Shown: in pieces, positions 18,538 through 38,434 of the stretch
How positions within the stretch are numbered: the stretch's first letter is position 1
Layout of the letters: the number at the start of each line of letters is the position of its first letter
Virus record (IMG/VR): IMGVR_UViG_3300042514_001698
Coordinates: 1 to 38,434 of that record
Length of the DNA: 38,434 nucleotides
Source of the DNA: a virus
Direction: 5' to 3' (one strand)
Notes under the pieces: generated by a model
The model's database searches: none
The model's input: only the letters and a program-made list of their open reading frames with translations
What the model was told of the DNA's origin: nothing
Position numbers and translations under genes: made by a program

Positions 18538-19182
18538 ATGACCACCACCACCCAGCTTGCCAACTACGCACTCGCCCACCTAGGCGAGGCGAAGATTTCC
18601 GACATCGACGACACCAACAGCAAGCCGGCCCGCGTCTGCAAGGAGTTCATCCAGCCGACCATTGACGAGGTCCTCCGCACCCACCGTTGGAATTGTGCCA
18701 CCAAGCGCGCCACCTTGAGCGCCAGCTCCACCCCGCCCACCCACGGCTACACCACCGCCTACGTCCTCCCCTCTGACTTCCTCCGCCTCCTGGAGATCAA
18801 TGGCGAGCCATGGAACGGCTCCGAGGAGTTCTTCGAGCTCGAGGCCAACCGCCGCATCCTCATCGACTCGGACGAGTGCCAAATCCGCTACATCGCCCGC
18901 ATCCCCGTCAACGAGTTTGACCCGCTCCTAACCAAGGCCGTCGCCGCCACTCTGGCCATGACGATCGTCGTCCCGCTCACCGGCAACCTCCAACTCCAAG
19001 GGCAACTCTCCATCCTCCTCCAGCGCGCCCTCAGCGCCGCCCGCCAGGTGGACGCCATCGAGGTCGGCGCCCGGGAAGGCCGCGGCCTCCGCCGGATACT
19101 GGACAACTCCCCCCTCATCCAGTCCCGCTTCACCTCCGCCTATAACATCCGCCGCCTCCTCAACCGATTCCCCCGCTGGTAA
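18538..19182 (+). CDS. Tail tubular protein A (T7 gp11-like)
   Basis: A 214-residue adaptor protein. The start TTTTQLANYALAHLGEAKISDIDDTNSKPARVCKEFIQPTIDEVLRTHRWNCATKRATLS is the family signature, as is YVLPSDFLRLLEINGE followed by strands. The helical end carries IEVGAREGRGLRRIL. Gp11 sits between portal and nozzle (T7 gp11 is 196 residues). Its stop shares one base with the start of the nozzle gene (TAATG), in the same order as in T7. Confidence 0.9.
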   Translation: MTTTTQLANYALAHLGEAKISDIDDTNSKPARVCKEFIQPTIDEVLRTHRWNCATKRATLSASSTPPTHGYTTAYVLPSDFLRLLEINGEPWNGSEEFFELEANRRILIDSDECQIRYIARIPVNEFDPLLTKAVAATLAMTIVVPLTGNLQLQGQLSILLQRALSAARQVDAIEVGAREGRGLRRILDNSPLIQSRFTSAYNIRRLLNRFPRW

Positions 19183-21704
19183 TGCCTGAGATTCTCGACC
19201 GGCGCGTTTCATTCAACGGCGGGGAGCTATCCCCGTGGACGGACCCGCGCATTGACCTGGAGAAATACCGGACCGCCTGCCGGACCATGGAGAACATCCG
19301 CCCCACCGTCTACGGCGGCGCCTTCTCCCGCCCCGGCACCGTCTTCATCGGGGAGGCCGCGGACCCGGACTTCCCCCACCGGCTTGTTGAGTTCGAGTTT
19401 TCCGTCACCACCACCTTCATCCTCGAGTTCGGCCAATACACCCTCCGCTTCTGGACCACCGGGGACACCCCCGGCCTTGTCCTCGACCCAACGGATGACC
19501 CGCTTGTCCTAGCCACCCCGTGGACCGCTGCGGAGGCGTTCGAGCTCCAATTCTCCCAGCAAAACGACGTCGTCTTCATCGTCCACCCCAGCCACGCCCC
19601 GCTCACCCTCTCCCGCTTCTCGAACAGCGATTGGCAGCTCACCCCCCTCCGCCTCCGCTGGCCCGCCACCCTGGACGAGAACCTCACCACCACCACCATC
19701 GCCATCACCGGCGCCTCCACCGCCACCCCCGGCACCCAAACCGCATGGGCCTCCGGCACCTACGCCGTGGGCGCCAAGGTCACCCACTCCGCCGTGGACT
19801 ACGTCTGCATCGCCGCGGTGGACGGCTACGTCTCCACCCTCGCCCCCGGCTCATGGTCCGGCTGGGAGACCTACTGGAGCCGCCTGGACGTCTCCCGCGC
19901 CCTTGGCATCGGCCAAGCGGTCACCCTGACCGCCTCGTCCGCCCTGTTTTCCGCCGATCACATCGGCTCCCGCTGGCTCGTCAACCACATCCGGGAGACC
20001 CCGGCCGCCGCATTCTCCATCAACACCGCCGTCAACGGGGACACCACCACCTCCCTCTTTGTCCTCGGGGAATGGTCCGCCTCCATGCGCTCAGACTCGG
20101 ACGGCTCCGGGGACTGGTCCGTCATCGTCGCCGTGGAACGCTCCTATGATCTCCTCACATGGGAGACCCGCCGCACCATCACCGGCACCAAGTCGGAGGT
20201 CCAGGCACTCCTCACCGGCACCGAGCTCGAGCCATGCTGGATACGCCTCAAGCTCCAGAGCAAGTCCGGCACCATCCCCAGCCAATACCGCGCAGAGATT
20301 GAGGCAGTCGACCCCTACCACTACGGCATCGTCCAGATCACCGCCCGCGCATCGTCCACCTCCGCCACCGCCATCCTCCTCTTCCCGGTCTCCACCACCA
20401 CCGCCACCACCCGTTGGAACGAAGCCGCGTGGAGTGATTACCGCGGTTGGCCCCGCTCCGTCGCCATCCATGAGGCCCGCCTGTTTTTCGGCGGCACCAC
20501 CCACAAGCCCCAAACCGTCTGGGGCAGCGTCATTGACGATTACTCCTCCTACCGCATCGGCGCCGACGACGACCTTGGTCTCGCCATCACTCTCGCCAGT
20601 GATGCCGCCAACGGCGTCCAGTGGCTCGTCTCCCAGGAGTCCCTTGTCATCGGCACCACCGGATCCGAATGGATCTTCGGCGCCCGCGCCAGTGACCGCA
20701 CCCTCACCGCCACCAACGCCGCGGTGAAGCGCAACACCTCGTTCGGCTCCGCCTACATTCAGGCCCGCGCCGTCCATGACGCCACCCTCTTCGTCCAGCG
20801 CAGCGCCCGCAAGGTCCGGGAGTTCGTCTACACCTTTGAGAAAGACGGCTTCTCCGCCCAGGACCTCACCATGCTCGCCGAGCACATCACCGCCGGCCGC
20901 ATCCTCCAAATCACCATCCAGCGCAACCCGGAAACCGTCCTTTGGGCTGTCACCGGCGACGGCGCCCTCATTGGCCTGACCTACGAGCGCGGACAAAATG
21001 TCGCAGGCTGGTTCCGCTTTGAGACCGATGGCGCCTTCGAGTCCATCGCCGTCGTCTCCGGCACCGGGGAGGAAGACGAAGTCTGGGTCGCCGTCAACCG
21101 CACCATCGACGGCGATACCGTCCGCTACGTTGAACGCTTCCAGCTCGACCAGATCCGCGCCCTCAAGGAAGACCGCCAGGAGGACCTCGTCTGCGTCGAC
21201 TCCGCCGTCGTCTACGATGGCGCCCCCATCACCACCATCACCGGCCTCGACCACCTCGAGGCTTGTGAGGTCTCCATCCTCGCCGATGGCGCGCCCCACC
21301 CCGCCCGCACCGTCCTCGGCGGGGAGATTGAGCTCCAGCTTGAAGCCTCCAAGGTAGCCGTCGGCCTCGCCTTCACCGCCACCATCGAGCCCACCTTCCT
21401 TGAGACCGGAGACCCCGGCAGCCTCAGCAAGGCCGGCGTCAAGCGCCTCCACCGCGTCATCGCGGAAGTCTGGAAGACCCTCGGCATGGAAGTCTCAGGG
21501 GACGCCGGCGCCACCTGGTCACGCATCGAGTTCCGCACCCCGGGCAATGACATGGACGCCGCCCCGCCCCTCTTCACCGGCATCATCGAGGAACACTTGG
21601 AAGGCTCATCCCAGCGCCAATCCACCGCCATCATCCGCCAGCGCCAACCGCTCCCCCTCAACATCATGTCCCTCACCTTCCGCTACGAGCTCAACGCCCT
21701 GTGA
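19182..21704 (+). CDS. Tail tubular protein B (T7 gp12-like nozzle)
   Basis: An 840-residue tail nozzle protein (T7 gp12 is 794). The N-terminus RRVSFNGGELSPWTDPRIDLEKYRTACRTMENIRPTVYGGAFSRPGTVFI is the well-known opening of podoviral gp12-type proteins. Later landmarks are FGGTTHKPQTVWGSVIDDYSSYRIG, SQESLVIGTTGSEWIFGA and RSARKVREFVYTFEKDGFSAQDLTMLAEHIT, all usual in the family. The inserted segment around residues 185-240 (TGASTATPGTQTAWASGTYAVGAKVTHSAVDYVCIAAVDG) resembles a carbohydrate-binding or chitin-binding-like repeat. The nozzle forms the tail tip through which DNA leaves. Confidence 0.92.
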   Translation: MPEILDRRVSFNGGELSPWTDPRIDLEKYRTACRTMENIRPTVYGGAFSRPGTVFIGEAADPDFPHRLVEFEFSVTTTFILEFGQYTLRFWTTGDTPGLVLDPTDDPLVLATPWTAAEAFELQFSQQNDVVFIVHPSHAPLTLSRFSNSDWQLTPLRLRWPATLDENLTTTTIAITGASTATPGTQTAWASGTYAVGAKVTHSAVDYVCIAAVDGYVSTLAPGSWSGWETYWSRLDVSRALGIGQAVTLTASSALFSADHIGSRWLVNHIRETPAAAFSINTAVNGDTTTSLFVLGEWSASMRSDSDGSGDWSVIVAVERSYDLLTWETRRTITGTKSEVQALLTGTELEPCWIRLKLQSKSGTIPSQYRAEIEAVDPYHYGIVQITARASSTSATAILLFPVSTTTATTRWNEAAWSDYRGWPRSVAIHEARLFFGGTTHKPQTVWGSVIDDYSSYRIGADDDLGLAITLASDAANGVQWLVSQESLVIGTTGSEWIFGARASDRTLTATNAAVKRNTSFGSAYIQARAVHDATLFVQRSARKVREFVYTFEKDGFSAQDLTMLAEHITAGRILQITIQRNPETVLWAVTGDGALIGLTYERGQNVAGWFRFETDGAFESIAVVSGTGEEDEVWVAVNRTIDGDTVRYVERFQLDQIRALKEDRQEDLVCVDSAVVYDGAPITTITGLDHLEACEVSILADGAPHPARTVLGGEIELQLEASKVAVGLAFTATIEPTFLETGDPGSLSKAGVKRLHRVIAEVWKTLGMEVSGDAGATWSRIEFRTPGNDMDAAPPLFTGIIEEHLEGSSQRQSTAIIRQRQPLPLNIMSLTFRYELNAL

Positions 21705-22096
21705 TCCAGCTCCGCACAATAACCCCGGAAGACTACCCGCTTTTCGCCTCATGGTGGGAGGGGCATCAAGTTGCGCCAACTCCGCAAGAATGCCTCCCAG
21801 CCCTTGGGATACTAGCCACTTACCAAGATCGCCCAACCTTCGCCGCTTGGGTCTCCATGGATAACTCCTGCGGCCTCTGTTTCCTCCTTTGGCCAATCGG
21901 CAACCCGTCATCACCCGCCCGCCACATTGGCCAAACCGTCCCCCATGTCATTGGCCACCTGAAGTCGCTCGCTCGCCAATTCGGCTACCACACCATGCTG
22001 GCCATGACTCACCGCGAAAGCCTCGCCCGCAAATTCACTCGCCTCGGATTTCGGCCGGATGACCAACAAATCCGCCTCCACTCCATCCACGTTTAA
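21701..22096 (+). CDS. GNAT-like protein in the T7 gp13 position
   Basis: A 131-residue protein with a GNAT N-acetyltransferase-like outline: IQLRTITPEDYPLFASWWEGH, a central beta hairpin (FAAWVSMDNSCGLCFLLWPI), a helix (HIGQTVPHVIGHLKSLARQFG) and LAMTHRESLARKFTRLGF, the typical final helix and strand. Many podoviruses carry a GNAT-like internal virion protein between gp12 and gp14 homologues, so a virion role is as likely as catalysis. GTG start overlaps the previous stop (GTGA). Base composition is less C-ended than its neighbours. Confidence 0.7.
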   Translation: MIQLRTITPEDYPLFASWWEGHQVAPTPQECLPALGILATYQDRPTFAAWVSMDNSCGLCFLLWPIGNPSSPARHIGQTVPHVIGHLKSLARQFGYHTMLAMTHRESLARKFTRLGFRPDDQQIRLHSIHV

Positions 22097-22100
22097 TCCC

Positions 22101-22613
22101 ATGCCATTTCTCGCAGCAGCAGCAGCCGTCGCTTCTATCGTCGGCACCGGCGTCGCCGTATACGGCCAACAGCAGGCCGCCAAGGCCGCCGAAGCCACCG
22201 GCCGCTACAATGCCGAGCTCGCCCGCAACCAAGCCGCCCAAGAGACGTCCGTGGCCGCGGAGAACGCCCGCCGCAAGGCCCGGGACAATGCCCGCTACAT
22301 CGGCGCCCAGCGCGCCGCCCTCGCCAAGGCTGGCCTCTCCATGGAAGGAACCCCCCTCGCTGTCCTCGGAGAGACTGCCAGCGCCCTAGAGCGGGACATC
22401 ATGGACCTCGGCTTTGACGCCGCCAACAAGTCCCGTTCGCTCCTCGCCGGAGCCAACCTTTCCATTTGGAAAGGCAACCAAGAAGCCAGCGCCATGCGGA
22501 TCGACGGCGCCTCCACCGCCCTCCGCGGATTCGCCACCACCGCCTCAGGCTTCACCAAGGCCACCGGCACCCAAGCACCCGCCGCCTCCACCTCCGGCTC
22601 CTACCTCGGCTAA
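22101..22613 (+). CDS. Internal virion protein B (T7 gp14-like)
   Basis: A 170-residue protein with the usual gp14 outline. A hydrophobic N-terminal helix (FLAAAAAVASIVGTGVAVYG, residues 3-22) is followed by a long Ala/Gln/Arg-rich helix (QQAAKAAEATGRYNAELARNQAAQETSVAAENARRKA), the segment GTPLAVLGETASALERDIMDLGFDAANKSRSLLAGANLS, and a Gly/Ser tail ending SGSYLG. Gp14-type proteins are ejected first and form a pore in the outer membrane. T7 gp14 is 196 residues. The start at 22101 sits right before the hydrophobic helix. Confidence 0.85.
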   Translation: MPFLAAAAAVASIVGTGVAVYGQQQAAKAAEATGRYNAELARNQAAQETSVAAENARRKARDNARYIGAQRAALAKAGLSMEGTPLAVLGETASALERDIMDLGFDAANKSRSLLAGANLSIWKGNQEASAMRIDGASTALRGFATTASGFTKATGTQAPAASTSGSYLG

Positions 22614-22625
22614 CCGCTCCCAACC

Positions 22626-24200
22626 ATGCCACTCCCGCCCACCCGCTACATCTCCGCCGGCCCCGCACTCCCGCAGGCTGACACCCGCACCGCCGCCGCC
22701 ACCAGTGAGGCCATGGCCCGCATGGGCAACACCATCGCCCAAGTCGGCGAGGAAGGGTTCAAAATCGCCGAGAAGGTCCGCAAGATCGAGGAAGCCGGCA
22801 AAGCCGCCTCCTATTTCGCCGACATCGACGAGCGCGCCAGCAAGTTCGCCAACGACCTCCTCACCCGCACCGACCCGGAGAAATGGGGCGAAGACTGGCG
22901 CGCCCTCAACGAGGAGTTCAAATCCGGCGCCCGCGGCCTCGGCCTCTCACCTGAAGGCGCCGCCCAGGTCGACCTCCAAGTCCAGGACTGGTCCACCCAA
23001 CGCACCATCCGCTTCGAGTCCCTCGCCGCCCAACGCTCCGCAGCCGAAGGCAAGGCCCGCATCGCCAATGCCCTCGACCGCTTTACTAAGCGCGGTGACC
23101 GGGAAGGCGTCGCCCGCACTCTCCCGCTTCTCGAAAAAGCCGGATTCACGCCCTCCGAAATTGAGCAAGTCACCCGGGAAACCGATCGCACCCTCAACAC
23201 CTACGACATCGAGGCGGACATGGACACCGACCCCATCCTCGTCATGCGCCAACTCGAGGACCCCAACTTCCTCGCCGCCAACCCCAACCTCACCATCGAG
23301 GACCGCCGCCGCCTCACCAAGCTCGCCCAGCAAAAGACCGAGGAACGCCGCTCCCAGAGTATTGACTTGTTCGACGTCGCCCTCATGGAGGGCCAGCTCA
23401 CCCCGGAAGACATCGACGCCGCCGCCTTCCTCACCAAGAAGGACAAGGCCGTCTTCAAACAAGCCCTCGCCAAGAACGATCCACCCACCAACGAGGCCCA
23501 CGCCCAGGCATGGCAAGCACTCGACAAGCTCAGGGAAGCCCGTCTCGACCCGTCCATCGACACCACCACCTACCGCCGCCTCTGGAACGAGGCACGCGGC
23601 GACGTCCTTTCCCGCATCCCCGCCGACTGGCGCGGAGACCTGAAAAAGGAACTCAACTACCTCGACCCCACCGGCCGGAACGCCGCCACCACCGCCGGCC
23701 CCCTCACCCGGGAAGACCTGGAGGCCGTTGGCCGCGGCACCGCCTTCCGCGCCCGGGACGCCGGACTCTTTGGCCGCGTCGATGAAGATGCCACCCCAGC
23801 CCAACGGGAAAAAGCCTACCGCCGCGCAGAAGACATCCGCCTAGAAATCAAACGCTTCACCGCCACCAACCCGCCCCCAACCGTCGAACAAGTCCGGGAG
23901 TTTACCGACCGCCTCATCGCCGGCCAAGCCACCACCGCCGCCGCCACCCAGATCCAGAACACCCTTCCCGGATCCGGCATGCGCTTCCGCTTGGCTCCTC
24001 CCACCTCACCCGCACCGGTTCCACGACAGGCTACCCCGCAAGCAGCGCCGGCGACCCAGCCGCCCGCCCCACCGCGGCCCTTGGAGCCCGCCACCGATGG
24101 CGCATACTCGCCCCTCCCTAATGACGAGGACGGCCTCGGCCCCGTCAACCCCTCCGCGCTCCCGCCCCGGGAACAACTCCGCTCCCTCCTTTCCGAATAA
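22626..24200 (+). CDS. Internal virion protein C (T7 gp15-like)
   Basis: A 524-residue, mostly helical, highly charged protein between the gp14-like and gp16-position genes. The N-terminus has PPTRYISAGPALPQADTRTAAATSEAMARMGNTIAQVGEEGFKIAEKVRKIEEAGKAASYFADID, the usual opening of such 'internal core' proteins in temperate podoviruses. Long helices follow, and a Pro/Thr/Ala-rich tail (about 450-500). Gp15 builds the periplasmic conduit for DNA ejection. T7 gp15 is longer (747), so the assignment rests on position and outline more than on sequence. Confidence 0.75.
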   Translation: MPLPPTRYISAGPALPQADTRTAAATSEAMARMGNTIAQVGEEGFKIAEKVRKIEEAGKAASYFADIDERASKFANDLLTRTDPEKWGEDWRALNEEFKSGARGLGLSPEGAAQVDLQVQDWSTQRTIRFESLAAQRSAAEGKARIANALDRFTKRGDREGVARTLPLLEKAGFTPSEIEQVTRETDRTLNTYDIEADMDTDPILVMRQLEDPNFLAANPNLTIEDRRRLTKLAQQKTEERRSQSIDLFDVALMEGQLTPEDIDAAAFLTKKDKAVFKQALAKNDPPTNEAHAQAWQALDKLREARLDPSIDTTTYRRLWNEARGDVLSRIPADWRGDLKKELNYLDPTGRNAATTAGPLTREDLEAVGRGTAFRARDAGLFGRVDEDATPAQREKAYRRAEDIRLEIKRFTATNPPPTVEQVREFTDRLIAGQATTAAATQIQNTLPGSGMRFRLAPPTSPAPVPRQATPQAAPATQPPAPPRPLEPATDGAYSPLPNDEDGLGPVNPSALPPREQLRSLLSE

Positions 24201-24209
24201 CCCACCACC

Positions 24210-27200
24210 ATGGCCGAACTCCTTGCCGACCCGTCGCCCGTCGCCCCAGCCGCGGACGACCTTTCCCTCTACCCGACCCCCCAGAGCCCGCGCACCCCGC
24301 TGGACATCGCCACCTCCCGGGAAGCACTCATCCCGGAGCTCATGGAGCCACTCAAGCCGGAGAACCAAGTCGCCTACTTGGACCCGGACGGCCGCCCGCT
24401 CACCCAGCTCGACGTCGAGCTCAAGGCATGGCAGCAGCTCCAGAACGCCCAATACTGGCGGGACTATCAACCCGGAGCCACCCCAACCCCACAGGACCGC
24501 CTCAAGGAACCCCTCCTTGCCCGCAACAAGGCAGAGCTCGCCAAGTATGAGGCCTACCGCCTCGGCCGCGGGGAAGAGCCATTCCAATACCTCGAGAAAG
24601 CCCAGCAGCAGCAGGAGAGCCGCACCTGGCGCCAGCGCCTCCCGGTCCTCACCAAACTCTTCTCCGGCCCCGCCACCATGGCGGACGCCCTCCCCGCGGA
24701 CCAGCGCCAGCCGTTCCTTGCCAACTTCGCCCATTCCCTCGACCCGGACCGGGACAAGATGCAGGCCGCCAACAAGATGCTCGTCGCAGAGATGACCGGC
24801 ACCCCGATGGACCAGCTTTACGACCTCTGGCCCGCCTACCGCACCCAATACGCCCAAGCCGCCCTCGGTGCCACCGGCCCCGTCGACGACGCCACCTTCT
24901 ACTCCCTCGCCGGAAAGAAGCTCAACCAGGAGAGCACCGACGTCCAAAGCCTCGAGGACGTCGCCAACATCGCCCGCCAAGCCGCCATCCGCTCCATCCC
25001 CGTCAAGCAGGCCATGGCCGAAGCCAAGGCCAAGGCCGGCGACAACTGGACCCGCTACGCCCCCGCCGCCCGCTCCGCCTACGCCGGCATCCTCTCGGAC
25101 TTCTCTGACAAGGAAATCACCCTCGCCCGCACCCTCTTCGAGTTCACCGGCAAACAACAAGGCGTCGAGGTGGCCCAGATCGCCGGCGCTGACCCGGACC
25201 GCTTCGCCGCATACGGCAAGCTCACCCCGCAGGAACGGGAGAACGTCCTCGGCCTCATGGCCATCCAAGCCGCCAGCGAAGGCCAGGACATCGACGCCTA
25301 CTTCTCCCGCCTTGGCGCCGCCGTCACCAGTGGCACCCGCGGCATCGCCGAGGACCTCGTCACCTCGGGAATCAAATCCCAAGCCGACTACGCCGCCGAG
25401 ATCCTCAAATCCGGCGTTCTCTACACCCCCGCGCCCGCTGACGACGCCGAGCCGAACACCAACACCTTCTTCTTTGAGGCGGACAACGCCGAGCAAGTCG
25501 CCAAACGCACCGGCAAACTTGAGGAAGCCGCCCGCCCGATCACCCCCAAGGAACGCGCCTACCTCGAGCGACTCCGGGACAACCAATCCGGCGCCGCCGC
25601 CTTCCTCCAGGACGCCAAGGCCAACCTCCCCAAGCTCCGCCGCTACGTCGACAACGAGCGCAACGGCTTCTGGGACTCCATGGGCGATTACAGCGTCATG
25701 GCCGCGGAATCCCTCCCCGTCATGGTCTACGCCGCCCTCCCCTACGGTGTCGGCCTCCCCGTCGTCGTCGAGACCTACGCCCAGCGGGACCTCCGCGCCC
25801 TGGAACTCAGCTCCCCCAACGCCGACCCGGAGACCCGGGAAGCCCTCGCCTACTCCGGCGCCATCCTCCAGGCCGGCATTGACCGCCTCCAAGTCTTAAC
25901 CCTCGGCGCCCGCCTCCCCAAGCTCAACGCCACCCTCCTCAAGATGGGACTCCCCGGCAAGGCCGCCGTCTTCACCGGACGCTGGGCCGGCGTCACCGCC
26001 ATGGAGACCGTTCAGGAACTCGGCCAGGACATCACCCCCACCGTCCTCCAAGCCGTCGCCTCAGCCTTCAATGATGACATTGGCGGCGTCGACTTCGAGA
26101 AAAAGTTCGGCCAACTCTACGACAGTCTCGGAGACATCGCCGGCGTCTCCATGATTTTCAGCTTCGTTGGTTCACTCGGTTCCACCACCGCGGACTACAT
26201 CAACGCCCCCGAAATTAAGAAGATCCTCACCGATCGGGAAGGCCTCGCCCTCGCCGGATTCTCCCCGGAGACCATCGAGCAAGTCGCCACCACCGCCGCC
26301 ACCAACCCGCTCGCCGCCGCCGAGGAACTCAAGGTTGCCACCATCGAGACCACCCCGGAGCAACGCAAAGCCAACTCCCGCGCCGCCCTGGAGAAGATCA
26401 AGCAGGAAGCCAAGCAAGCGCCCACCGCCCAGGAAGCCGGCATCCCCACCATCGAGCGCCTCGAGGACGGAACCTTCGCCGTCATCTACCCGGACGGCAC
26501 CCAAGACATCGCCGAGACCGACACCGACGCCTGGGCCGCCGTCCGCGCTTGGGAGCTCGACGAGGCAGTCACCCAGGAAACCGCCATCCGGGATTACATC
26601 AAATTCCTTGAAGGCTACCATGAGGGCAACCCGGAGCTCCAAGTCCGCGGCACCTACACCGGCAAGGAAGTATCATTTGATACCTGGGCAAAGGGATCCA
26701 AGGAACGCATCGACCAGGCCCACGCCCGCGTCCGCATCCACATGGCCCAAAGCGGCCTCGACCTCTCCCCGGACGAAGTCGTGGACCTCACCCGCTACCT
26801 CATCCTTGGCAGCTCCCGGAACTCCTACGGCGCCGGCGTCACCCGCATCGCCATCCAGATCAACAAGGCCCGCCAATCCAACGCCCCCGACGCGCCAACC
26901 GGCGCCACCGTCCTCACCCCGATCGAGGAGCACGCCGAAGGCATCGCCAAGTGGATGATGGAGACCGGCAAGAAGTCGGAGGCATGGTTCATCGAGAACA
27001 TCCGCGCCACCGAGGCCGCCACCGGCCAACTCACCCTCCCGGACAACCTCGCCGACCTCTCCCCGGAAGCCCGCTCCCAGCAGATCGTCGAGGCATTCTC
27101 CCGTCTCGCCGTCGCCAACGCCGTTGGAAAGGTCCCGGACAGCAAGCTCCCCGCCGCACTCAAGGCCGTCTTCCGCGCCATCAAGGAGACCATCACCGAG

Positions 27201-30200
27201 ATCCTCCGCCTCGCCACGGACATCGCCCGCATCCGCCAGGACGGCAAGATGGACGCCGAATTTGGTTACTGGCTCGACGTCTCCGCCGGCCTCAACGAGG
27301 AATACTATGGCGAAAACATGCGCATGGCCATGGAGGCCGACCTCCTCGCCGACGCCATGGCCGGCTTCCCGGAAATCTCCACCTCCATCAAGGGCCGGCT
27401 CCCCCACCCGGAGACCCTGGAAAAGTCCGGCCATCCGCTCGCCGGGGAAGTCCGCTCGCTCTACAACGAGATCCGCACCAACCCCCAGTCCGGCGCCTCC
27501 AAGTCCGCACGCACCCGCACCGCCAACGAGTTCTTCCTCGCCCCCGGCGTCAACGAGGACCTCGACTTCATCCGGGACCGCCTCAACCAGATCGGCTTCG
27601 ACTTCCTCACCCCGGCCGAGATGCTCGACGCCGCCATCTCCTCCGTCGCCTACGGCAAACCCGTCTACGCCACCGGCAACCCAGACGTCGAAGCCGCCTT
27701 CGCCGGCGAGTCGTTCGCTATCGCCAAGACCGAAGGAGTATTCCCCAAAGCAAGCGCCGCCGCCGGCTCTCTGGATGGCCCGGACCTTGCCGCCGTCCAC
27801 AACCTTACCGCGGAAAACCTTGCCTTTGCTGACTCCCTTGGCGGCCTCGCGGTTCCCTCGATTGCCATTGTCCCCGTTGGGCAAGCCATCGCCGGATTCG
27901 GGGAAATCACCCTCCTGGGCGGCCGGCCGCTGGCAGACCCGGACCGCAATCCCGTGTTTGACGCAGACGCCTACACCGCCCGCTTCCCGTCACCGGAATA
28001 CAAGAAAGTCCCAATGAAGAAGGCGCAGGCCGCCGTGGACATGCTCCGCCCCTTCACCAAGGCCATGGAAGACCGGTCTTCCATTGACGCACTCTGGGAC
28101 AACTCAGTCAACCGCCCGGACCCGGACCGCATCATCTCCACCCTGAAGCGGGATGCTTCCGCCAAGGCCGCCTATCTCGCCACCCTCGGCATCACCGTCG
28201 AACCCATCCGCCGGGAACTCGTCTCCTCTGACGACATCATCCGCACCAAGGCATTCCAAAAATTCCTCGCCGCCGGCGGATCAGTCAGCCCCGCTTACGA
28301 TGATGAAGCCGGACACTTGGCCCTCGCCGACGTCATCCGCGCCGCCGCCACCGAAAAGGCCAACAAAAAACACAGAGAACCCGCCCGCCGCGAACGCTTC
28401 CTCAAGCTCTACCTTCAAGCCCACCTCAACCCGGACGGCACCGTTTACCGCTTGATGGACTTCGAGCGCCGCGTCCGCAACCTCGGCAGGCAGGAAGTTG
28501 ACCGCCATGCCACCAACGATGCGCTGGATGGCGCCCTCGCCGGCAAGGAAGCAGACTTCTACACCTGGGTCGAAACCACCGTCCGCTCACTCTTTGAGGA
28601 GCCGCGCATCAAGCTCCGCGGCAAACTTGTCCCCTACACCATCGAAAACATTGCCGAGGCAATGATTGCGGGCCGCACCGCAGGCGTCGAAAAGGGCATG
28701 ACCTTCAGCGAAGGCAAGGCCCGCGCCATGGCCTCCCGCCGCTTCTCATCCTTGGAACAGCTCCGCCAAGCCGCCGGCTCTCAAATCCTCCCGGAGGATC
28801 AAGTCACCACCCTCCGGGAAGCAGTCTCCAAACGCCTCAGCCAATGGCGCGAGAACATCGCCCCGTTCTACCGCTGGAAAAGCGTTTGGGACGCCATGGA
28901 CAACTCCATGGAAGCCCTTGGCCGATACCTCAAAGGCCCACGATCAAAGACACGGATGACCTCCGCGCTTGCCGCCCTGGACTTTGTTGACGTTCCCGTG
29001 GAACTTGTCGAAGAAGCCATGGAGATTGGCCAGGACTTCCTTGCCACCCCAGTCCCATACTTCGAGAGCAAGCCTCAGCGCGTTGTCCGCCTCAATGAGT
29101 TCAAGGCCGCCGTGGTTCCTGCCGACGCGTCACCCCAAACCTTGGAGATCCTTTCGCGCCACGGCATCACCGTCCACACCCTCCCGCCAGACGCGTCTTC
29201 CCGCGACCTCTCCGCCCGCGCCGAAGTCATCTCCAGCATTTCCGGCATCTCCTTCGCCATCGCCCGCGCCTCCTCCCCGCTCATCACCGCCATCGAGGAC
29301 CTCGCCGCCGCCCCCAACGCCGAGGCCAAGACCGTCATTTACCAGCGGATGAAATCCAAGGTCCGGGAAGTCCGGGACCGCTTTGAGAGCCGCCGCCTCA
29401 CCGCGCCCCTAATGGGCCTCATGGAAGAGGAAGACCAGGACAGCCGCTTCCGCATGATCCGGGACCTTGCCACCCTAGAAGCCGTCAGCAAAGCCCTACC
29501 ACCCGCCATCCGCGGCAAGCTCATCGGCTCATTCCGCCGCATGGAGAACCTCCGCACCCCCAGCGGCCGGGAAGCCTACATGCTCGTCCTCCTCCCCAAA
29601 ATCGAGCAGGCCCTCGAGAACCACCTCGCCACCCAGTTCCGCGCCCAGATCCGCCGGGAGTTCGACCGCGGCGCCATCAAGGTCAGCGATTCCCGCACCC
29701 GCGGCGGCAAGATCGGCGCCGCCGCCCACAAGGTCTTCGAGGAAGCCCGCAAAGCCATGACCCTCGCCCCGGAGCAGGCAGAGGCCACCGCCGAGAAACT
29801 CCGCGACGAGCTCGAGAACGCCCCCAACGTCACCCCCGAGCGCCTCGAGGAACTCGACGGCCGCATCGCCGCGCTGGAACTCTTCCAGGACTACGAGAAC
29901 GCCGACAGCGCCCGCCTCGAGGAAGCCCTCCAACTCCTCAAGGACGTCTACGCAGACGGACGCCGGGAATGGCTCGAGATCCTCACCGCCCGCCGGGACG
30001 CCCGGGCCGCCTCCGTGGGCGCCCTCCGTGTCGGCCTCAACATGGACCGCCCCATCGACTACTCGGAGCGCCCCAAAGCCAAGCGCGCCGACGAGAAGCT
30101 CCTCCGCAAGCTCTCGGAAGGATTCATGGCCAGCTTCATCTCCAACTCCCAGAAGATCCGCCGGCTTGCCGAACTCACCGACGACCCCACCGCCATCGCC

Positions 30201-32561
30201 GTCGTCGAGCAGATGGAGGCGGACTTCCTCAACGCCGAACTCTCCGAGAACGACCTCAACCGCGCCGACAACGAGGCCCTCGCCCTCGCCATGCGGGAAA
30301 TCTTCGGCGTCTCCAGCCAATACGCCGTGGCCAAGAAGCTCAAGGAGCTCACCTCCACCGACGATCGGGAGATCCCCGTCACCAAGGTCGAGGGATTCCG
30401 GGAGGAACGCATCACCATCCCCATCCGCTTGGTCGACGCCCTCCTCCGCGGGGAAGTCGCCGGATTCGAACACAATGGCCAGATGGTCGAGCTATCGCCC
30501 CATGACATCGCCGCCCTCGATAAGGCATGGGAACGCTTCACCGAGATGGATGAGAGCGCCCAGACCCGCCGCCGCGTCATCCACATCGACCGGAAGGTCT
30601 CCAAAGGCCAGCGCAAGAGCCTCGGCCAGATGAACCAGCTAGAGGCCCTCCAACTCTACCTCACCATGCGCCAGCCGGACCAGGCCGCCAAGCTCGAGGC
30701 CCTCGGATTCGACCAGGTCACCATGGCCGACCTCGAGGCATGGCTCAAACCAGAGACCAAGGCCCTCGGCGCATGGATGTCCACCTACCTCATGCAGGAC
30801 CAAGACGCCGTCGACGCCATCCACCGCGCCGAGAAAGGTGTCGGCCTCGGCCTCGTCGCCAACTACTTCCCCGTCCGCAATGACGTCTCCCGTGCCGACA
30901 ACGGCGGCCTCTCACTCGACGGCCAAGCACCCATGCAGGCCGGCCGCAGCGTCGGCTTCATCAAGGAGCGCGTCACCAACTACGCCAACCCAGCCGTCGT
31001 CAACGCCGTCGCCGTCTTCCTCGCCCACCGATCTCAGGTGAATTTCTGGAAATCCCACGTCGCACCGCTCCGGGAATGGGGCGGCGTCATCCGGGACGAG
31101 GCATTCGCCACCGCCGTCAAGACCCGCATGGGGGAAACCTACTACAAGACCCTCACCGACCTCCTCCAACGCATCGAGTCCGGCGGCTCCCTCAACGCCT
31201 CCGGCCTCCTCGGCTACGAGCGCGCCCTCAAGCGCCTCCAGAAGACCTTCGCCCTCGGCACCCTCGGCATGCGGATGTCCACCATCCTCGTCAACGCCGG
31301 CGCCGCCATCAACGTCTTCTATGAGATCCCCACCAAGGACGTCTTCCGCGGCCTCTTCCTCGCCATCAAGCGCCCGGAGGCCTTCAAGGATGCCTGGAAC
31401 TCCCCCGCCATCCGCCGCCGGCTCGAGGAAGGCGCCACCTTTGAGGCCCGCATCGCCAAAGCCTCCGGCCCCTCTGACAACCCCGTCATGGCCGTCCTCA
31501 ACGCCACCGCGGAGAAAGGCATGTTTCCCATCAACCTGGTGGACACCACCGCCAACATGCTTGGCGCCGTGGTGGTCTGGGAACACACCCGCACCAAGTC
31601 ACTCCGCGCCGGCCTGGATGAGGCCACCGCCCGCCAAGAGGCAGACGCCAAGGTCGAGCGCCTCTTCCTCCGCGCCGCCCAGCCCACCACCCGCCTCGCC
31701 CGCTCCACCATCGAACAGCGCGTCTTGGACAACCCCCTCTCCGCCTTCCTCGCCATGTTCATCAGCGAGCCGCGGAAAAACCTCGCCATCACCTACATGG
31801 CCGTCCGCGAGCTCGCCACCGGCAAAGGCACCTACGGCAAGCAGATGGCCGCCCAGCAAGCATTCGTCGGCCTCGTTGTCGGCCTGGCCCTGGAGCACCT
31901 CCTCCGCTCCTTCTACGCCGCCTTCGCCAAAGCAGAGCCGGAAGACGAGGACACCCTCCTCGCCCGCTTCCTCAGCAACCTCACCGACCCCAAGAGCCTC
32001 GCCCAGCTCTTTCTCGTCTCCCACCTCCGCGCCGTCCCCGTCTTCGGCCAGGCATGGGACTTCGGCGTCGCCAAGGCCCTCGACAAGCCCGTCTTCGACC
32101 GCAGCCCCAACCCCCTCGTCAAGCTCCTCGATTCCCCCAAGCACATCTCCACCCTCTTCGAAGGCACCACCACCCAGCAAGCCGACAGCGCCACCACCCT
32201 CGTCCAGTCCCTCGGCACCACCATCCCCGGCGGCTCAGTCGTCGCCCAGGCCGCCAACATCGCAGACTTCGCCCTCGGCGTCGCCGCCTCCTCCGGCGTC
32301 GACCTGTCTGACGAGGACCGCATTGCCCGCCTCAAGACCCGCTACTCCAAGTTCAACACCGCCCTCCAGGACGAGCTTGGCAAGACCACCCGGGAAGACG
32401 GCACCATCGACAAGGACATCCAGCGCCGCAAACACGCCGCCCTCGCCGACAAACTCCGCGCCGACCTCGCCCCGCTCACCCCCGAGCTCCGCGCCAAAGC
32501 CCTCGAAGCCATCGACCCACCCGAGAAGGTCCTCAAGCTCATGACCCTCCCCAAGCCATAA
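24210..32561 (+). CDS. Giant internal/ejected polyvalent protein, 2783 aa (T7 gp16 position)
   Basis: One uninterrupted frame of 2783 residues, over a fifth of the genome and about twice T7 gp16 (1318). By position it is the inner-membrane ejection protein. A hydrophobic stretch lies near 490-515 (SLPVMVYAALPYGVGLPVVV) and another near 640-660. Around residue 1185 comes LAAVHNLTAENLAFADSLGGLAVPSIAIV followed by GFGEITLLGG, a segment I recall from large polyvalent proteins of phages and conjugative elements. Long charged helices fill 1500-2100. Near 2345-2480 are ALGTLGMRMSTILVNAGAAINVF and related helices of the polyvalent C-terminal type. No lytic transglycosylase motif was seen at the N-terminus. 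Such proteins enter the cell with the DNA and act on defences or DNA; which activities exist here is not known. Confidence 0.8.
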   Translation: MAELLADPSPVAPAADDLSLYPTPQSPRTPLDIATSREALIPELMEPLKPENQVAYLDPDGRPLTQLDVELKAWQQLQNAQYWRDYQPGATPTPQDRLKEPLLARNKAELAKYEAYRLGRGEEPFQYLEKAQQQQESRTWRQRLPVLTKLFSGPATMADALPADQRQPFLANFAHSLDPDRDKMQAANKMLVAEMTGTPMDQLYDLWPAYRTQYAQAALGATGPVDDATFYSLAGKKLNQESTDVQSLEDVANIARQAAIRSIPVKQAMAEAKAKAGDNWTRYAPAARSAYAGILSDFSDKEITLARTLFEFTGKQQGVEVAQIAGADPDRFAAYGKLTPQERENVLGLMAIQAASEGQDIDAYFSRLGAAVTSGTRGIAEDLVTSGIKSQADYAAEILKSGVLYTPAPADDAEPNTNTFFFEADNAEQVAKRTGKLEEAARPITPKERAYLERLRDNQSGAAAFLQDAKANLPKLRRYVDNERNGFWDSMGDYSVMAAESLPVMVYAALPYGVGLPVVVETYAQRDLRALELSSPNADPETREALAYSGAILQAGIDRLQVLTLGARLPKLNATLLKMGLPGKAAVFTGRWAGVTAMETVQELGQDITPTVLQAVASAFNDDIGGVDFEKKFGQLYDSLGDIAGVSMIFSFVGSLGSTTADYINAPEIKKILTDREGLALAGFSPETIEQVATTAATNPLAAAEELKVATIETTPEQRKANSRAALEKIKQEAKQAPTAQEAGIPTIERLEDGTFAVIYPDGTQDIAETDTDAWAAVRAWELDEAVTQETAIRDYIKFLEGYHEGNPELQVRGTYTGKEVSFDTWAKGSKERIDQAHARVRIHMAQSGLDLSPDEVVDLTRYLILGSSRNSYGAGVTRIAIQINKARQSNAPDAPTGATVLTPIEEHAEGIAKWMMETGKKSEAWFIENIRATEAATGQLTLPDNLADLSPEARSQQIVEAFSRLAVANAVGKVPDSKLPAALKAVFRAIKETITEILRLATDIARIRQDGKMDAEFGYWLDVSAGLNEEYYGENMRMAMEADLLADAMAGFPEISTSIKGRLPHPETLEKSGHPLAGEVRSLYNEIRTNPQSGASKSARTRTANEFFLAPGVNEDLDFIRDRLNQIGFDFLTPAEMLDAAISSVAYGKPVYATGNPDVEAAFAGESFAIAKTEGVFPKASAAAGSLDGPDLAAVHNLTAENLAFADSLGGLAVPSIAIVPVGQAIAGFGEITLLGGRPLADPDRNPVFDADAYTARFPSPEYKKVPMKKAQAAVDMLRPFTKAMEDRSSIDALWDNSVNRPDPDRIISTLKRDASAKAAYLATLGITVEPIRRELVSSDDIIRTKAFQKFLAAGGSVSPAYDDEAGHLALADVIRAAATEKANKKHREPARRERFLKLYLQAHLNPDGTVYRLMDFERRVRNLGRQEVDRHATNDALDGALAGKEADFYTWVETTVRSLFEEPRIKLRGKLVPYTIENIAEAMIAGRTAGVEKGMTFSEGKARAMASRRFSSLEQLRQAAGSQILPEDQVTTLREAVSKRLSQWRENIAPFYRWKSVWDAMDNSMEALGRYLKGPRSKTRMTSALAALDFVDVPVELVEEAMEIGQDFLATPVPYFESKPQRVVRLNEFKAAVVPADASPQTLEILSRHGITVHTLPPDASSRDLSARAEVISSISGISFAIARASSPLITAIEDLAAAPNAEAKTVIYQRMKSKVREVRDRFESRRLTAPLMGLMEEEDQDSRFRMIRDLATLEAVSKALPPAIRGKLIGSFRRMENLRTPSGREAYMLVLLPKIEQALENHLATQFRAQIRREFDRGAIKVSDSRTRGGKIGAAAHKVFEEARKAMTLAPEQAEATAEKLRDELENAPNVTPERLEELDGRIAALELFQDYENADSARLEEALQLLKDVYADGRREWLEILTARRDARAASVGALRVGLNMDRPIDYSERPKAKRADEKLLRKLSEGFMASFISNSQKIRRLAELTDDPTAIAVVEQMEADFLNAELSENDLNRADNEALALAMREIFGVSSQYAVAKKLKELTSTDDREIPVTKVEGFREERITIPIRLVDALLRGEVAGFEHNGQMVELSPHDIAALDKAWERFTEMDESAQTRRRVIHIDRKVSKGQRKSLGQMNQLEALQLYLTMRQPDQAAKLEALGFDQVTMADLEAWLKPETKALGAWMSTYLMQDQDAVDAIHRAEKGVGLGLVANYFPVRNDVSRADNGGLSLDGQAPMQAGRSVGFIKERVTNYANPAVVNAVAVFLAHRSQVNFWKSHVAPLREWGGVIRDEAFATAVKTRMGETYYKTLTDLLQRIESGGSLNASGLLGYERALKRLQKTFALGTLGMRMSTILVNAGAAINVFYEIPTKDVFRGLFLAIKRPEAFKDAWNSPAIRRRLEEGATFEARIAKASGPSDNPVMAVLNATAEKGMFPINLVDTTANMLGAVVVWEHTRTKSLRAGLDEATARQEADAKVERLFLRAAQPTTRLARSTIEQRVLDNPLSAFLAMFISEPRKNLAITYMAVRELATGKGTYGKQMAAQQAFVGLVVGLALEHLLRSFYAAFAKAEPEDEDTLLARFLSNLTDPKSLAQLFLVSHLRAVPVFGQAWDFGVAKALDKPVFDRSPNPLVKLLDSPKHISTLFEGTTTQQADSATTLVQSLGTTIPGGSVVAQAANIADFALGVAASSGVDLSDEDRIARLKTRYSKFNTALQDELGKTTREDGTIDKDIQRRKHAALADKLRADLAPLTPELRAKALEAIDPPEKVLKLMTLPKP

Positions 32562-32614: not shown

Positions 32615-33616
32615 ATGGCGGTCAGCTCCACGGTTATCCTCTCCCAATACCCCGGGAACGACTCCACCGTCGTCGCCTACCCCACCGACTTCTACTTCCA
32701 GGACGAGGAATGGATCCGCGTCCAGGTCATGGATGAGGACGGCGTCGTCACCGCCCTCGCCCTTGGAGACGACTTCACCGTCACCGGCGCCGGAGATCCA
32801 GACGGCGGAGAGATCCTCACCACCGAGGCATGGGACTCCACCCACACCCTCACCATTTACCGGATCGTCCCCTTCACCCAGACATTGGAGCTGGAATACA
32901 ACGACCGCCTCCCCTCCGCACTCCTGGAGCGGTCCCTGGACAAGCTCACCTACATGGTCCAGCAGCTCGCCGGCAACACCGCCACCGGCGACCGCTCACT
33001 CCGCTTCCCCTTCTCGGAGCCCACCGCCAACGAGACCACCCTCCCGACCCCTGTCCTCCGCCGGGACTCGCTCATTTACTTTAACGCCACCACCGGCGAG
33101 CTTGAAGTCCTCCCCCGCCTGGACCTCATCGAGGACATCACCGCCGCCCTGGGTGATGACTCCACCGACTTCGCCAGCCTCACCACCGGCAACACCTTCG
33201 CCGGCACCCAGACATTTGAGGCAGCCGTCACCCTGGATTCCACCCTGGCCGTCACCGGCACCGCCACCCACAACGGCGCCGTCACCTTCAACAAGCGCGT
33301 CTCCTTTGGCCTCGTCACCCTCACCGACGCCGCCACCGTCACATGGGACGCCAGCCTCGGCAACCTCCTCACCGTCACCCTCGCCGGAGACCGCACCCTC
33401 GCCAACCCCACCAACCTCGCCCCCGGGACCTACATCCTCCGCGTCGTCCAGGGAACCGGCGGAAACCACACCTTGGCCTTTGGCTCCAACTACCGCTTCC
33501 CGGCCGGCGCCGCTCCCGTCCTCACGATCGAGGAAGGCGGCGTCGACATCCTTACGCTCATCAACTTTTCCGGCACAGACGTCCTCGTCCTCGCCTCCAA
33601 CGACTTCCAGGCCTAG
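32615..33616 (+). CDS. Tail fibre protein with T7 gp17-type N-terminus
   Basis: A 333-residue fibre. Residues 1-120 match the T7 tail-fibre N-terminal domain (PF03906) that attaches to the tail: STVILSQYPGNDSTVVAYPTDFYFQDEEWIRVQVMDEDGVVTAL, then LTIYRIVPFTQTLELEYNDRLPSALLERSLDKLTYMVQQL. The rest is repetitive beta structure (TFAGTQTFEAAVTLDSTLAVTGTATHNGAVTFNKRVSFG) ending in a compact domain (NHTLAFGSNYRFPAGAAPVLTIEEGGVDILTLINF) common at fibre tips. No receptor-binding head is present, so the following proteins probably dock on it. Leader CCCACC before ATG. Confidence 0.88.
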   Translation: MAVSSTVILSQYPGNDSTVVAYPTDFYFQDEEWIRVQVMDEDGVVTALALGDDFTVTGAGDPDGGEILTTEAWDSTHTLTIYRIVPFTQTLELEYNDRLPSALLERSLDKLTYMVQQLAGNTATGDRSLRFPFSEPTANETTLPTPVLRRDSLIYFNATTGELEVLPRLDLIEDITAALGDDSTDFASLTTGNTFAGTQTFEAAVTLDSTLAVTGTATHNGAVTFNKRVSFGLVTLTDAATVTWDASLGNLLTVTLAGDRTLANPTNLAPGTYILRVVQGTGGNHTLAFGSNYRFPAGAAPVLTIEEGGVDILTLINFSGTDVLVLASNDFQA

Positions 33617-34407: not shown

Positions 34408-34704
34408 ATGCCAAACCTCACCGCCGCCAACAACCCGCTCACCGAAAACGGCGAGTTCATCCTCTCCGGCCTCATCCCCGGCAAGGAATACCTCCTCACC
34501 CTCAAGGGAGAATTTGACGGCGCCACCGTCACCCTCACCACCCAGTCATCCGCGGACCTCTCCGTCTTTGACCCCGTCACCGATGGCGCATGGACCGCAG
34601 ACGCCGAGGACCGCGTTGTCATGCCCTCCTCCCAGGCATGCTTCACCGTCACCGACGCCGACACCGCCACCGCCATCCGCCTCACCTTCGTCCCCATCTC
34701 CTAA
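34408..34704 (+). CDS. Small beta-rich tail accessory protein, 98 aa
   Basis: A 98-residue protein made almost wholly of strands: NPLTENGEFILSGLIPGKEYLLTLKGEFDGATVTLTTQSSADLSVFDPVTDGAWTADAEDRVVMPSSQACFTVTDADTATAIRLTFVPI. The outline (Leu-Ile-Pro-Gly-Lys-x-Tyr, ending FVPI) is that of small beta-sandwich proteins often found between fibre genes. A structural or fibre-capping role is likely. The stop shares a base with the next start (TAATG). Confidence 0.6.
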   Translation: MPNLTAANNPLTENGEFILSGLIPGKEYLLTLKGEFDGATVTLTTQSSADLSVFDPVTDGAWTADAEDRVVMPSSQACFTVTDADTATAIRLTFVPIS

Positions 34705-36383
34705 TGTCCCTCCTCGCCTCCACCGGCATCCTCGCAGCCACCGGCATCCTCTCCGGCCGCGGGATACTCTCCAGCCCCCCGGCGGTGGAGCCGCGAGTCA
34801 TCACCGGGACGCCATATCCCGGTGAAACCTTGACGAGCACGATTACCGGACAGTGGGCAGTCGATGGCGTGTCGATTGATGGCGAGACTAGCGCAACTCT
34901 TGTCGTGCCGGACACCGCGACCGCTGGCGATCTAATCACCTGCGGCAATAGCAACGCGCTAGAGGTAATTGGAATCCTCGATTACATCGACCCTTATGTC
35001 GCGTTTGAGAAGGCGTCTGGCGTTCTGGAATCTGACAACAGCGCAGCGGAGGATGGCGAAATCGTCACGACGTGGCAAAATCGCGGCTCTTACAACGACG
35101 CGTTGCTAACCCTTGCGGGTGGGCCAACATGGAACAACACCAACTCGCGGGTTGCGTTCAGCGGGGCTACTGGAATCGGAATGCGCTCCAGCTTGGCGCG
35201 CTTCGCATATTCAACGAACATTCCCGACGGTGCCGGGGAAACCGCCGGAAATGGATTCACGATCACCGGGCTCTGCCGAGCCTCAGACGGAACGTGGTGG
35301 GCGGCGAACCACGGGCAAGGTCTTGGCTCAAGCGTTTTTGCGACATCGCTGGTTCACCTTTCCGCTGACTTCACCACCAAACTTGACGAGATCCTGCTGG
35401 TGCCGCTTTTCCCCTCGATCGGCTCAATCCAGGGTATCACGCTTGAGGCTGACGGGTCGATCTGGTTTGCGTCGACCGACGAAAACAAGCTACGCCATGT
35501 CTCTACGTCTGGCGTCGATTTGGGAAGTATCAACACCGCATCATCGCCGAACGCTTTGGTTTATCGCGCGAGCGACAACAAGCTGATTACCGGCGCAGGT
35601 GCTGCGGTTAACCTCTACGATGCGACCAGTGGATCGCTCACAGGGACATTGCCATACACGGCCGGGATGGATCATTTCCACCTTTGTGCAAACGGTGATT
35701 TGCTCGCGACGATTGGCAGCAACGGCAGCGATGCCGAGGTTTGGCTCCTCCACTCTGGCGGCACCGCTTGGCGGCGCTTGTGCGTGCTGCACGGCTCACT
35801 CGCCGTGGAGGGCATTTATTGGGATGAGTCCGCCAACCTGCTCCACATCGCAAACGATGAGCGATATCATCTCGGAGCCGCTTACAAAAACCGGATCGCG
35901 ACCTACAACGTGCCGCCGCGCTATCTGTCGGTGGTGGAATTGCACGCGCGGGTCAAGTTGGGGACGCGCGCCAAAACCGAATGCTTTCTCGGCATCGGTG
36001 AACCAGTCGACGGGTCAGGGTTTGGCCTATTTGTGCTGAGCGGCAACAACACCGCCCTGCGGATTTTCGCCAACACCTCGTCCGGCACCAGCCAGCGCGT
36101 GCAGCGGGATGTCACGGTTTCCAACCTGACGACCGAGAGCGTCATCCGGGTCAAGCTCGATCTCGCCAACGATGTCATCTCCATCTGGCAAAACGGGACA
36201 CTGATTTCCAACTCCCAATCCGCCGCCGCCTGCGGGCCGGAAATGCTAATGCGCGCGGTTGGCATCGGTCGCGCCGCCGAAGAAGGCGACCGGAGTTGCT
36301 CCGGTGAAGTCGCATCGGCCTATGTAACGCCTGCGCTCACCACCCGCCAGGCCGCCGACCTCCTCGCCCACATGCAAGCCTAG
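34704..36383 (+). CDS. Receptor-binding protein: beta-propeller-like plus lectin-like domain
   Basis: A 559-residue protein. Residues 1-90 are a short repetitive start (LLASTGILAATGILSGRGIL) and an Ig-like segment (TGTPYPGETLTSTITGQWAVDGVSIDGETSATLVV). About 100-160 and 430-559 together look like a split lectin-like jelly roll. The middle (about 185-430) has repeated blades such as ITGLCRASDGTWWAANHG, IQGITLEADGSIWFASTDENKLRHVSTSG and HFHLCANGDLLATIGSNGSDAEVW, the style of a beta-propeller. Codon use changes sharply at about 34790 and returns to the phage norm only near 36340, so the receptor-binding part was exchanged as a module. Confidence 0.75.
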   Translation: MSLLASTGILAATGILSGRGILSSPPAVEPRVITGTPYPGETLTSTITGQWAVDGVSIDGETSATLVVPDTATAGDLITCGNSNALEVIGILDYIDPYVAFEKASGVLESDNSAAEDGEIVTTWQNRGSYNDALLTLAGGPTWNNTNSRVAFSGATGIGMRSSLARFAYSTNIPDGAGETAGNGFTITGLCRASDGTWWAANHGQGLGSSVFATSLVHLSADFTTKLDEILLVPLFPSIGSIQGITLEADGSIWFASTDENKLRHVSTSGVDLGSINTASSPNALVYRASDNKLITGAGAAVNLYDATSGSLTGTLPYTAGMDHFHLCANGDLLATIGSNGSDAEVWLLHSGGTAWRRLCVLHGSLAVEGIYWDESANLLHIANDERYHLGAAYKNRIATYNVPPRYLSVVELHARVKLGTRAKTECFLGIGEPVDGSGFGLFVLSGNNTALRIFANTSSGTSQRVQRDVTVSNLTTESVIRVKLDLANDVISIWQNGTLISNSQSAAACGPEMLMRAVGIGRAAEEGDRSCSGEVASAYVTPALTTRQAADLLAHMQA

Positions 36384-37860: not shown

Positions 37861-38434
37861 ATCGCCCGCGCCGGATTCTCCCCCGACCGTTGTTCCAAGT
37901 CCAATTCTGCGGAACTTTTGCGGAACTCATCCGCGGCGAAATCCAGCCCGAACCACGCCTCCCCCAGCTCCTCCGGCTGGGGATTGTGATACCGGTGGTT
38001 GAGCATCCCCACGCTGGTCCCCATCTCCTCCGCCAGCCTTGGAAGGTCCCGGATCACCGCGTTGCGGTATGACCCATACGAATGCCGGAGCGCGTTCTTT
38101 GGCCAACCGGCCGCCCCAAACAACAATTTCCCCAGGCGGAACAACTCCCGCTCCTCGACAGGATTCTTGAGGCACACCGGCCCCGTCATCCCTGGACGGA
38201 TCCCGGCCCACTCGAGGCCCGCCCGCAGCGCGTCAGACATCGGCACCCGCCGCGGCGTGTCGACCTTGGAGACCTCCGCCGGCACCATCACCGCAGAGAA
38301 CCGCCAATCAATGTCCTCGCACGCCAGCCCCCGCTTGTCCCGCTTCTTCGCCCCCGCCTTCGTCGGCGGCGCGATTTCCTCCGGCCGCAAGCCAGCAAAG
38401 GCCCCGAGCACAGCCCACACGCGAAAATCCGGCG
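37854..38434 (-). CDS. int: Tyrosine integrase, C-terminal 193 residues (N-terminus cut by window edge)
   Basis: Catalytic end of the integrase, corresponding to residues 229-421 when aligned with the copy at 1-981. R245 (AGLRPEE), R345-H346 in NALRHSYGSY and the probable nucleophile Y377 in NHRYHNP are visible. The box before R345 reads N-x-x-R where H-x-x-R is usual, and the position after the helix reads MGTS where most relatives have MGH/MGN. Such ends (LRHSY.SYR...AEEMG) are what I recall from PVC-group integrases. The stop lies in the inverted repeat beside the att core. At its start it matches 1-296 at all but 11 of 296 bases. Confidence 0.93.
   Translation of the reverse strand, partial: PDFRVWAVLGAFAGLRPEEIAPPTKAGAKKRDKRGLACEDIDWRFSAVMVPAEVSKVDTPRRVPMSDALRAGLEWAGIRPGMTGPVCLKNPVEERELFRLGKLLFGAAGWPKNALRHSYGSYRNAVIRDLPRLAEEMGTSVGMLNHRYHNPQPEELGEAWFGLDFAADEFRKSSAELDLEQRSGENPARAIC
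38139..38434. repeat. Terminal repeat, right copy (pairs with 1-296)
   Basis: Colinear with 1-296, 11 mismatches, none in the last 127 nt (38308-38434). The window therefore ends exactly where the exact match with its own left part reaches 127 nt. If the genome is circular, 38434 joins to 297 and the integrase continues without a frameshift (581 + 685 = 1266 nt, 422 codons with stop). Confidence 0.9.

Follow-up and report, generated by a model that had tools for sequence, protein, structure and literature searches.

The DNA analysed here, referred to as the window, is the whole 38,434-nucleotide viral record IMGVR_UViG_3300042514_001698 of IMG/VR. One of its genes encodes a giant protein of 2,783 residues in the position which gp16 occupies in phage T7, and this giant is very probably an ejected virion body with an enzyme payload, the polyvalent-protein domain PBECR5, embedded in its middle. 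A more specific reading is favoured with less assurance, namely that the giant is a gp16-slot ejection protein carrying an ADP-ribosyltransferase (ART)-like PBECR5 enzyme beside a cassette slot. The kind of protein is already known; what is new is the variant, with its gp16 slot, evidently dead zincin peptidase and one apparently live module, a pair of related phages in which the cassette slot is filled in one and empty in the other, and the indication that the boundary assigned to PBECR5 is likely, and its fold possibly, wrong.

On this reading the window would belong to a small podovirus and the giant would be its third ejection protein, taking the place of T7 gp16. Its mostly helical body would be packaged alongside the gp14-like and gp15-slot partners and be threaded through the tail on exit, and the central PBECR5 enzyme (residues ∼1190–1660) would reach the host cytoplasm with the first DNA. 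The enzyme may be an ART-like NAD-dependent transferase using His1197, Ser1217 and Glu1619/Glu1630, not a BECR RNase. Residues ∼1075–1184 would form the cassette slot, which appears to hold further effectors in relatives and to be nearly empty in the window.

The giant gene and its position

The giant gene stays open from its ATG for 2,783 codons; shuffling the window 30 times gave no stop-free frame longer than 556 codons. It occupies 21.7% of the window, and the statement in the first-pass annotation, made from the letters and open reading frames (ORFs) of the window, that one protein takes over a fifth of the genome describes a real ORF. The genome looks complete because both contig ends carry a 296-bp direct repeat, 96.3% identical (window 1–296 and 38139–38434). 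This repeat reaches both ends although the record is classed as being without end repeats.

The genes run in the order portal, capsid protein, gate, nozzle, 131-aa protein, gp14-like protein, 524-aa gp15-slot protein, giant and tail fibre. Cobetia phage Carin1 and Acinetobacter phage Ab9 have a matching order, as do dozens of metagenomic phage contigs in IMG/VR. The T7 gp16 position proposed in the first-pass annotation is borne out by this succession of gate, nozzle, gp14-like protein, gp15 slot, giant and fibre N-terminus. The gp15-slot protein of the window is homologous to that of a related contig, L041 (E 2.6e-23), and the L041 giant is collinear with the window giant over residues 78–1685. 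The likeness to T7 gp16 and its P22 counterparts lies in the place after gp14/gp15 and before the tail fibre, in the helical body and in the lack of cysteine; the giant differs from T7 gp16 in being twice as long and in having no detectable homology to it, no transglycosylase and an embedded enzyme module.

Two results count against the reading as an ejected body. Searches by blastp and with profiles of the N- and C-terminal parts gave no sequence similarity of the giant to T7 gp16, P22 or N4 proteins, and the term gp16 slot is therefore a statement about shared gene order. The AlphaFold2 model of residues 380–1190 was helical but of low confidence, with a predicted local distance difference test score (pLDDT) of 55.8.

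The three putative ejection proteins of the window (giant, gp15-slot and gp14-like) contain no cysteine in 3,491 residues, where the remaining genes would predict ∼44 (Poisson 8e-20). The 82 related giants counted have 26 cysteines over a total of 234,119 residues, versus 8.8 per 1,000 in the other long ORFs of the same loci. Cysteine is also absent from T7 gp15 and gp16, N4 virion RNA polymerase and P22 gp7, gp20 and gp16, and T7 gp14 has one; most other virion proteins checked have cysteine, the exception being the N4 capsid protein. By analogy, the absence of cysteine is a strong though indirect sign of ejection; it fits passage through the tail and periplasm without proving it.

An N-terminal lytic transglycosylase is present in T7 gp16 and absent in P22. 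The first-pass annotation saw no transglycosylase site in the giant and supposed that the payload may have replaced it. The first of these statements agrees with the Pfam scan, in which no transglycosylase (SLT) domain was found down to E 1 in the giant or in the gp15-slot protein of the window; the gp15-slot proteins of L041 and of two further relatives, L005 and L013, gave no SLT match. The second statement is contradicted by Carin1 and Ab9, both of which pair a PBECR5 giant with a gp15-slot protein that contains an SLT domain (E 8.5e-20 and 4.9e-10, respectively). A review describes the hydrolase as moving between gp16 and gp15 and as absent from P22 (PMC8954989). Since the SLT domain in the gp15 slot coexists with a PBECR5 giant and the move of the hydrolase is already described, the payload is not a transglycosylase replacement.

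Carin1 gp32 (2,854 aa) and Ab9 KXESLGME_CDS0016 (2,839 aa) resemble the window giant in gene order, in size and in the PBECR5 module, at 32% and 25% identity, respectively. They differ in having an active-looking zincin (HExGH) after the module, besides the SLT lysozyme in the gp15-slot protein.

Extent and fold of the PBECR5 module

PBECR5 (PF18814) was matched by Pfam at residues 1191–1336 with E 3.6e-22 and 79.8 bits, the cut-off being 25 bits. An IMG/VR scan gave 241 loci coding for relatives, of which 80 were kept, and residues ∼1190–1655 are common to nearly all of these relatives. All 69 members of the module alignment match PBECR5. The union of an ejection-position protein with a polyvalent payload, as suggested in the first-pass annotation, is found as a gp16-slot protein with embedded PBECR5, with just one named payload domain. 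As for the polyvalent segments noticed in its middle and end, PBECR5 accounts for the middle; the C-terminal part, though conserved in relatives, corresponds to no named polyvalent domain. The counter-defence role attributed to the payload is a guess.

AlphaFold2 applied to the module alignment gave a model of 481 residues with pLDDT 93.9 and a predicted template modelling score of 0.82. In module numbering its strands lie at 9–15, 34–38 and 49–53 and then at 434–436, 447–453 and 470–474, and the ∼350 residues between the two groups are almost all helix. Matches to the 239-position Pfam model stop at residue ∼1336 in the window and at the equivalent of ∼1414 in another relative, L007, so that the closing strands of the core fall outside the Pfam model. 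The predicted structure shows a PBECR5 domain larger than the Pfam model, extending over ∼1190–1660, and because the catalytic core is split by the helical insert the Pfam model would cover just the first half of the module. The GC content at third codon positions is 0.76 in the module (window 27762–29204) against 0.85–0.90 across the rest of the giant gene, which may reflect a separate origin or a codon constraint.

The conserved polar residues are located in both halves of the split core. His1197 is invariant in the 68 homologues having a residue there, and Ser1217, Asp1253, Glu1619 and Lys1621 in all 69; T/S is found at position 1234 in 68 of the 69, Arg1624 is conserved in 65 and Glu1630 in 66. 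Outside these residues identity falls to 21–49% across the 69 homologues. Judging from this conservation, the embedded polyvalent enzyme domain is apparently active.

When the module model was compared with the PDB using VIA-align, the best match was Tpt1 (tRNA 2'-phosphotransferase) 7yw4, with Z 7.5 over 98/120 residues at 3.2 Å, and the second was 8htd, a Chromobacterium effector in complex with ubiquitin, with Z 6.5 over 131 residues. Both are members of the ADP-ribosyltransferase superfamily. Only these two span the model from first to last strand, the remaining matches being to the insert helices. No BECR structure was among the matches, which is not evidence of absence. By eye, the HGT motif before a helix and the '..GL.P' turn of Tpt1/KptA resemble 'AVHNLTAENLAFADSLGGLAVPS' in the window module. 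The models suggest that PBECR5 is probably ART-like rather than an RNase.

Several observations pull in the other direction. Z values of 7–8 are common for models without a true relative and a Z under 8 alone is no proof of an ART fold. Foldseek alone found no significant PDB match for the module model; in BFVD it matched the module to eleven giant phage proteins with E below 1e-9. The spliced core gave no significant hhalign score against DarT, KptA or ART-PolyVal, nor a significant profile match to a ParE-type BECR family; profile comparison supports neither reading. Because none of these four comparisons was significant, the ART reading is a structural one. Comparison with MuF_C and EndoU was precluded by the small size of their reference sets, and a PDB sequence search with the spliced core gave nothing useful. 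Finally, PBECR5 was assigned as an RNase by its curators (Pfam/Iyer et al. 2017, PMC5512222).

The curators' assignment leads to the main alternative, in which the same ejected vehicle would carry PBECR5 as a metal-independent BECR-fold endoRNase cutting host mRNA or CRISPR RNA on entry. The invariant His, Ser, Glu, Lys and Arg could also carry out acid-base RNA cleavage. However, in the model the His lies in a strand ahead of the first helix, and the strands that close the sheet come 350 residues further on, beyond the Pfam matches. The two ART folds at the head of the VIA-align list, without any BECR structure, and the comparison with the ParE-type profile also speak against an RNase, which is possible but distinctly the less probable chemistry. 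The chances seem about even that PBECR5 has been misfiled altogether and is an ART-fold enzyme, its core split by a ∼350-residue insert, delivered in a podoviral gp16-slot protein with cassette exchange of accompanying effectors at one adjoining site. Taken separately, the boundary of PBECR5 is likely to be wrong and, going by the model, its fold is possibly wrong; the window module would differ from the PBECR5 class both in being larger than the Pfam model and in being ART-like by structure.

It is improbable that the giant is purely structural, with a PBECR5 region that is carried along inert in a long gp16-like body or serves as a head-packing scaffold. Most of the giant looks helical and the window variant lacks both the zincin active site and other payloads, as such a protein might. 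Against this, the polar residues proposed for the active site persist in practically all 69 homologues while the remainder has drifted to the low identity given above, and the module adjoins known enzymes in most giants. A helical body with no separate domain, which the first-pass annotation had named as the finding that would tell against it, was looked for, and a PBECR5 domain was present. The giant is hardly a virion RNA polymerase like that of N4, as has been proposed for cysteine-free giants in StenR_269 (PMC10747016, where such giants are noted for StenR_269 and Zobellviridae), which it resembles in its large size, lack of cysteine and gp16-like position beside virion genes, since scanning Pfam and PHROGs down to E 1 detected no RNA polymerase domain and PBECR5 was found instead.

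Payload exchange and the degenerate zincin

The flanks of the stretch before PBECR5 are common to the closest relatives and the stretch itself varies. It holds RadC in L005, ART-PolyVal in L013 and, in L006 and L007, a PBECR1-like domain that scores under its curated cut-off; in the window it consists of about 110 residues with no named domain. The giants of L087 and L005, which come from different metagenomes, are 95.6% and 98% identical either side of this site, and L005 has an additional in-frame stretch of 534 codons (1,602 bp) which encodes RadC and which L087 is without. The two are a natural pair of empty and filled sites. The RadC cassette lies at L005 11977–13579, corresponding to L087 9988–10006, with a short imperfect similarity at the junction. 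Because two near-identical phages differ by a clean in-frame RadC cassette, the pre-PBECR5 site exchanges payloads, and because this neighbouring spot holds different enzymes in related phages, the giant looks like an interchangeable delivery vehicle.

Relatives combine PBECR5 with ART, zincin, RadC, LPD3, LPD22 and others. In a census of 85 related giants ART-like domains were found in 47 and RadC in 11, neither being present in the window giant; some loci are near-duplicates and so the census counts are not independent. Beyond the collinear region the L041 giant ends in an ART-PolyVal domain, which follows residue 1685. A related giant of 3,530 aa with PBECR5, ART-PolyVal and LPD23 was seen in L088, a Deltaproteobacteria contig from a metagenome-assembled genome which is possibly a prophage.

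The zincin peptidase is central to the polyvalent architecture and is likely to be its self-processing enzyme (Iyer et al., PMC5512222). It was matched by profile in 42 of the 85 giants, the window giant not being among them. Nevertheless, window residues ∼841–1070 align to the zincin profile of the relatives with E 1.1e-4 and score 37 over 127 columns. When the comparison was slid along the N-terminal, module and C-terminal alignments, scores of 26.5–31.9 arose only in overlap with ∼841–1070, and none exceeded 20.6 elsewhere. The structural matches of the residue 380–1190 model were weak and tied, one of them being the zincin peptidase 1j7n (Z 5.0) over the same region. At the metal motif the window has EEHAE, and L006 and L007 have EExxH. 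From its sequence, the zincin upstream of PBECR5 is recognisable but evidently dead, its metal site having been lost; therefore the clade of the window is probably without that route of self-processing. The window variant probably functions as a single uncleaved chain or is cleaved by some other factor.

The giant thus shares with the polyvalent proteins of Iyer et al. (2017, PMC5512222) a PBECR5 domain over the curated cut-off and coding among late virion genes. It differs from them in having only one recognisable, apparently live effector domain, an evidently dead zincin and a podoviral gp16 slot.

Other features and significance

Apart from the module and the dead zincin, large parts of the giant are without a named domain. 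A suspected C-terminal LPD38 domain was searched for and not found, and weak Pfam matches (DUF4170, E 0.2) were disregarded. The giant gene had no megablast match among phage records, and a PDB sequence search with the giant gave nothing useful. Scanning viral contigs with the giant as a single sequence found none; a three-member alignment query did work. The N- and C-terminal parts diverge too far for their alignments to be used in scans of the collection. Coordinates are collected in Table 1.

The ATG of the giant lies 9 bases past the stop codon of the gp15-slot gene with no recognisable Shine-Dalgarno sequence (window 24170–24212), and its translation may be coupled to that gene. The closest nozzles are those of BcepC6B and of HTVC010P-type pelagiphages, although HTVC010P itself has no giant annotated downstream of its nozzle. 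A 597-aa protein at window 34590–36383 contains 8 cysteines and matches nothing significantly in PHROGs or Pfam.

Table 1. Features of the giant gene and its neighbours, in window coordinates (res, residues of the giant).
Feature	Position	Strand	Evidence
Tail gate protein	18538..19182	+	phrog_394 1.4e-43
Tail nozzle protein	19182..21704	+	phrog_376 7.1e-183
gp14-like internal virion protein, without cysteine	22059..22613	+	phrog_418 6.7e-19
gp15-slot protein, without cysteine, no detectable transglycosylase; homologous to gp15-slot protein of L041	22626..24200	+	
Giant gp16-slot protein, 2,783 aa, without cysteine	24210..32561	+	ORF, cysteine count, synteny
N-terminal body, res ∼180–1074, mostly helical, common to closest relatives whatever the payload	24747..27431	+	blastp to L041, L005, L006, L004
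Hydrophobic segment, res 502–520, possible membrane helix	25713..25769	+	Kyte-Doolittle 1.78
Degenerate zincin metallopeptidase domain, res ∼841–1070	26730..27419	+	profile match E 1.1e-4, score 37; weak controls
EEHAE (res 906–910) in place of HExxH, metal site evidently lost	26925..26939	+	
Payload-exchange site, res 1075–1184, short here; RadC, PBECR1 or ART in relatives	27432..27761	+	
Complete PBECR5 module, res 1185–1665, predicted split core with ∼350-residue helical insert	27762..29204	+	Pfam E 3.6e-22, AlphaFold2, 69-sequence alignment
His1197, putative catalytic residue, strand 1	27798..27800	+	68/68 homologues having a residue there
Second insertion point, res 1685–1709, holding LPD3 in L005	29262..29336	+	
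Conserved segment after module, res 1710–1914	29337..29951	+	blastp to L005, L006, L007, L004
Conserved C-terminal segment, res 2167–2615, without named domain, found weakly in Vibrio podophages too	30708..32054	+	
Hydrophobic segment near C-terminus, res 2547–2569	31848..31916	+	Kyte-Doolittle 1.43
Tail fibre, conserved N-terminal attachment domain	32615..33616	+	phrog_1640 2.9e-25

Polyvalent proteins are predicted to be injected and have lacked a clear physical route. The gp16 slot of T7-order tail modules would be such a route, testable by ordinary virion biochemistry. The L005/L087 pair indicates that effectors enter or leave at a fixed site in nearly identical phages. The corrected boundary and fold of PBECR5, if true, would mean that the chemistry predicted for a widespread family is NAD-dependent modification instead of RNA cutting.
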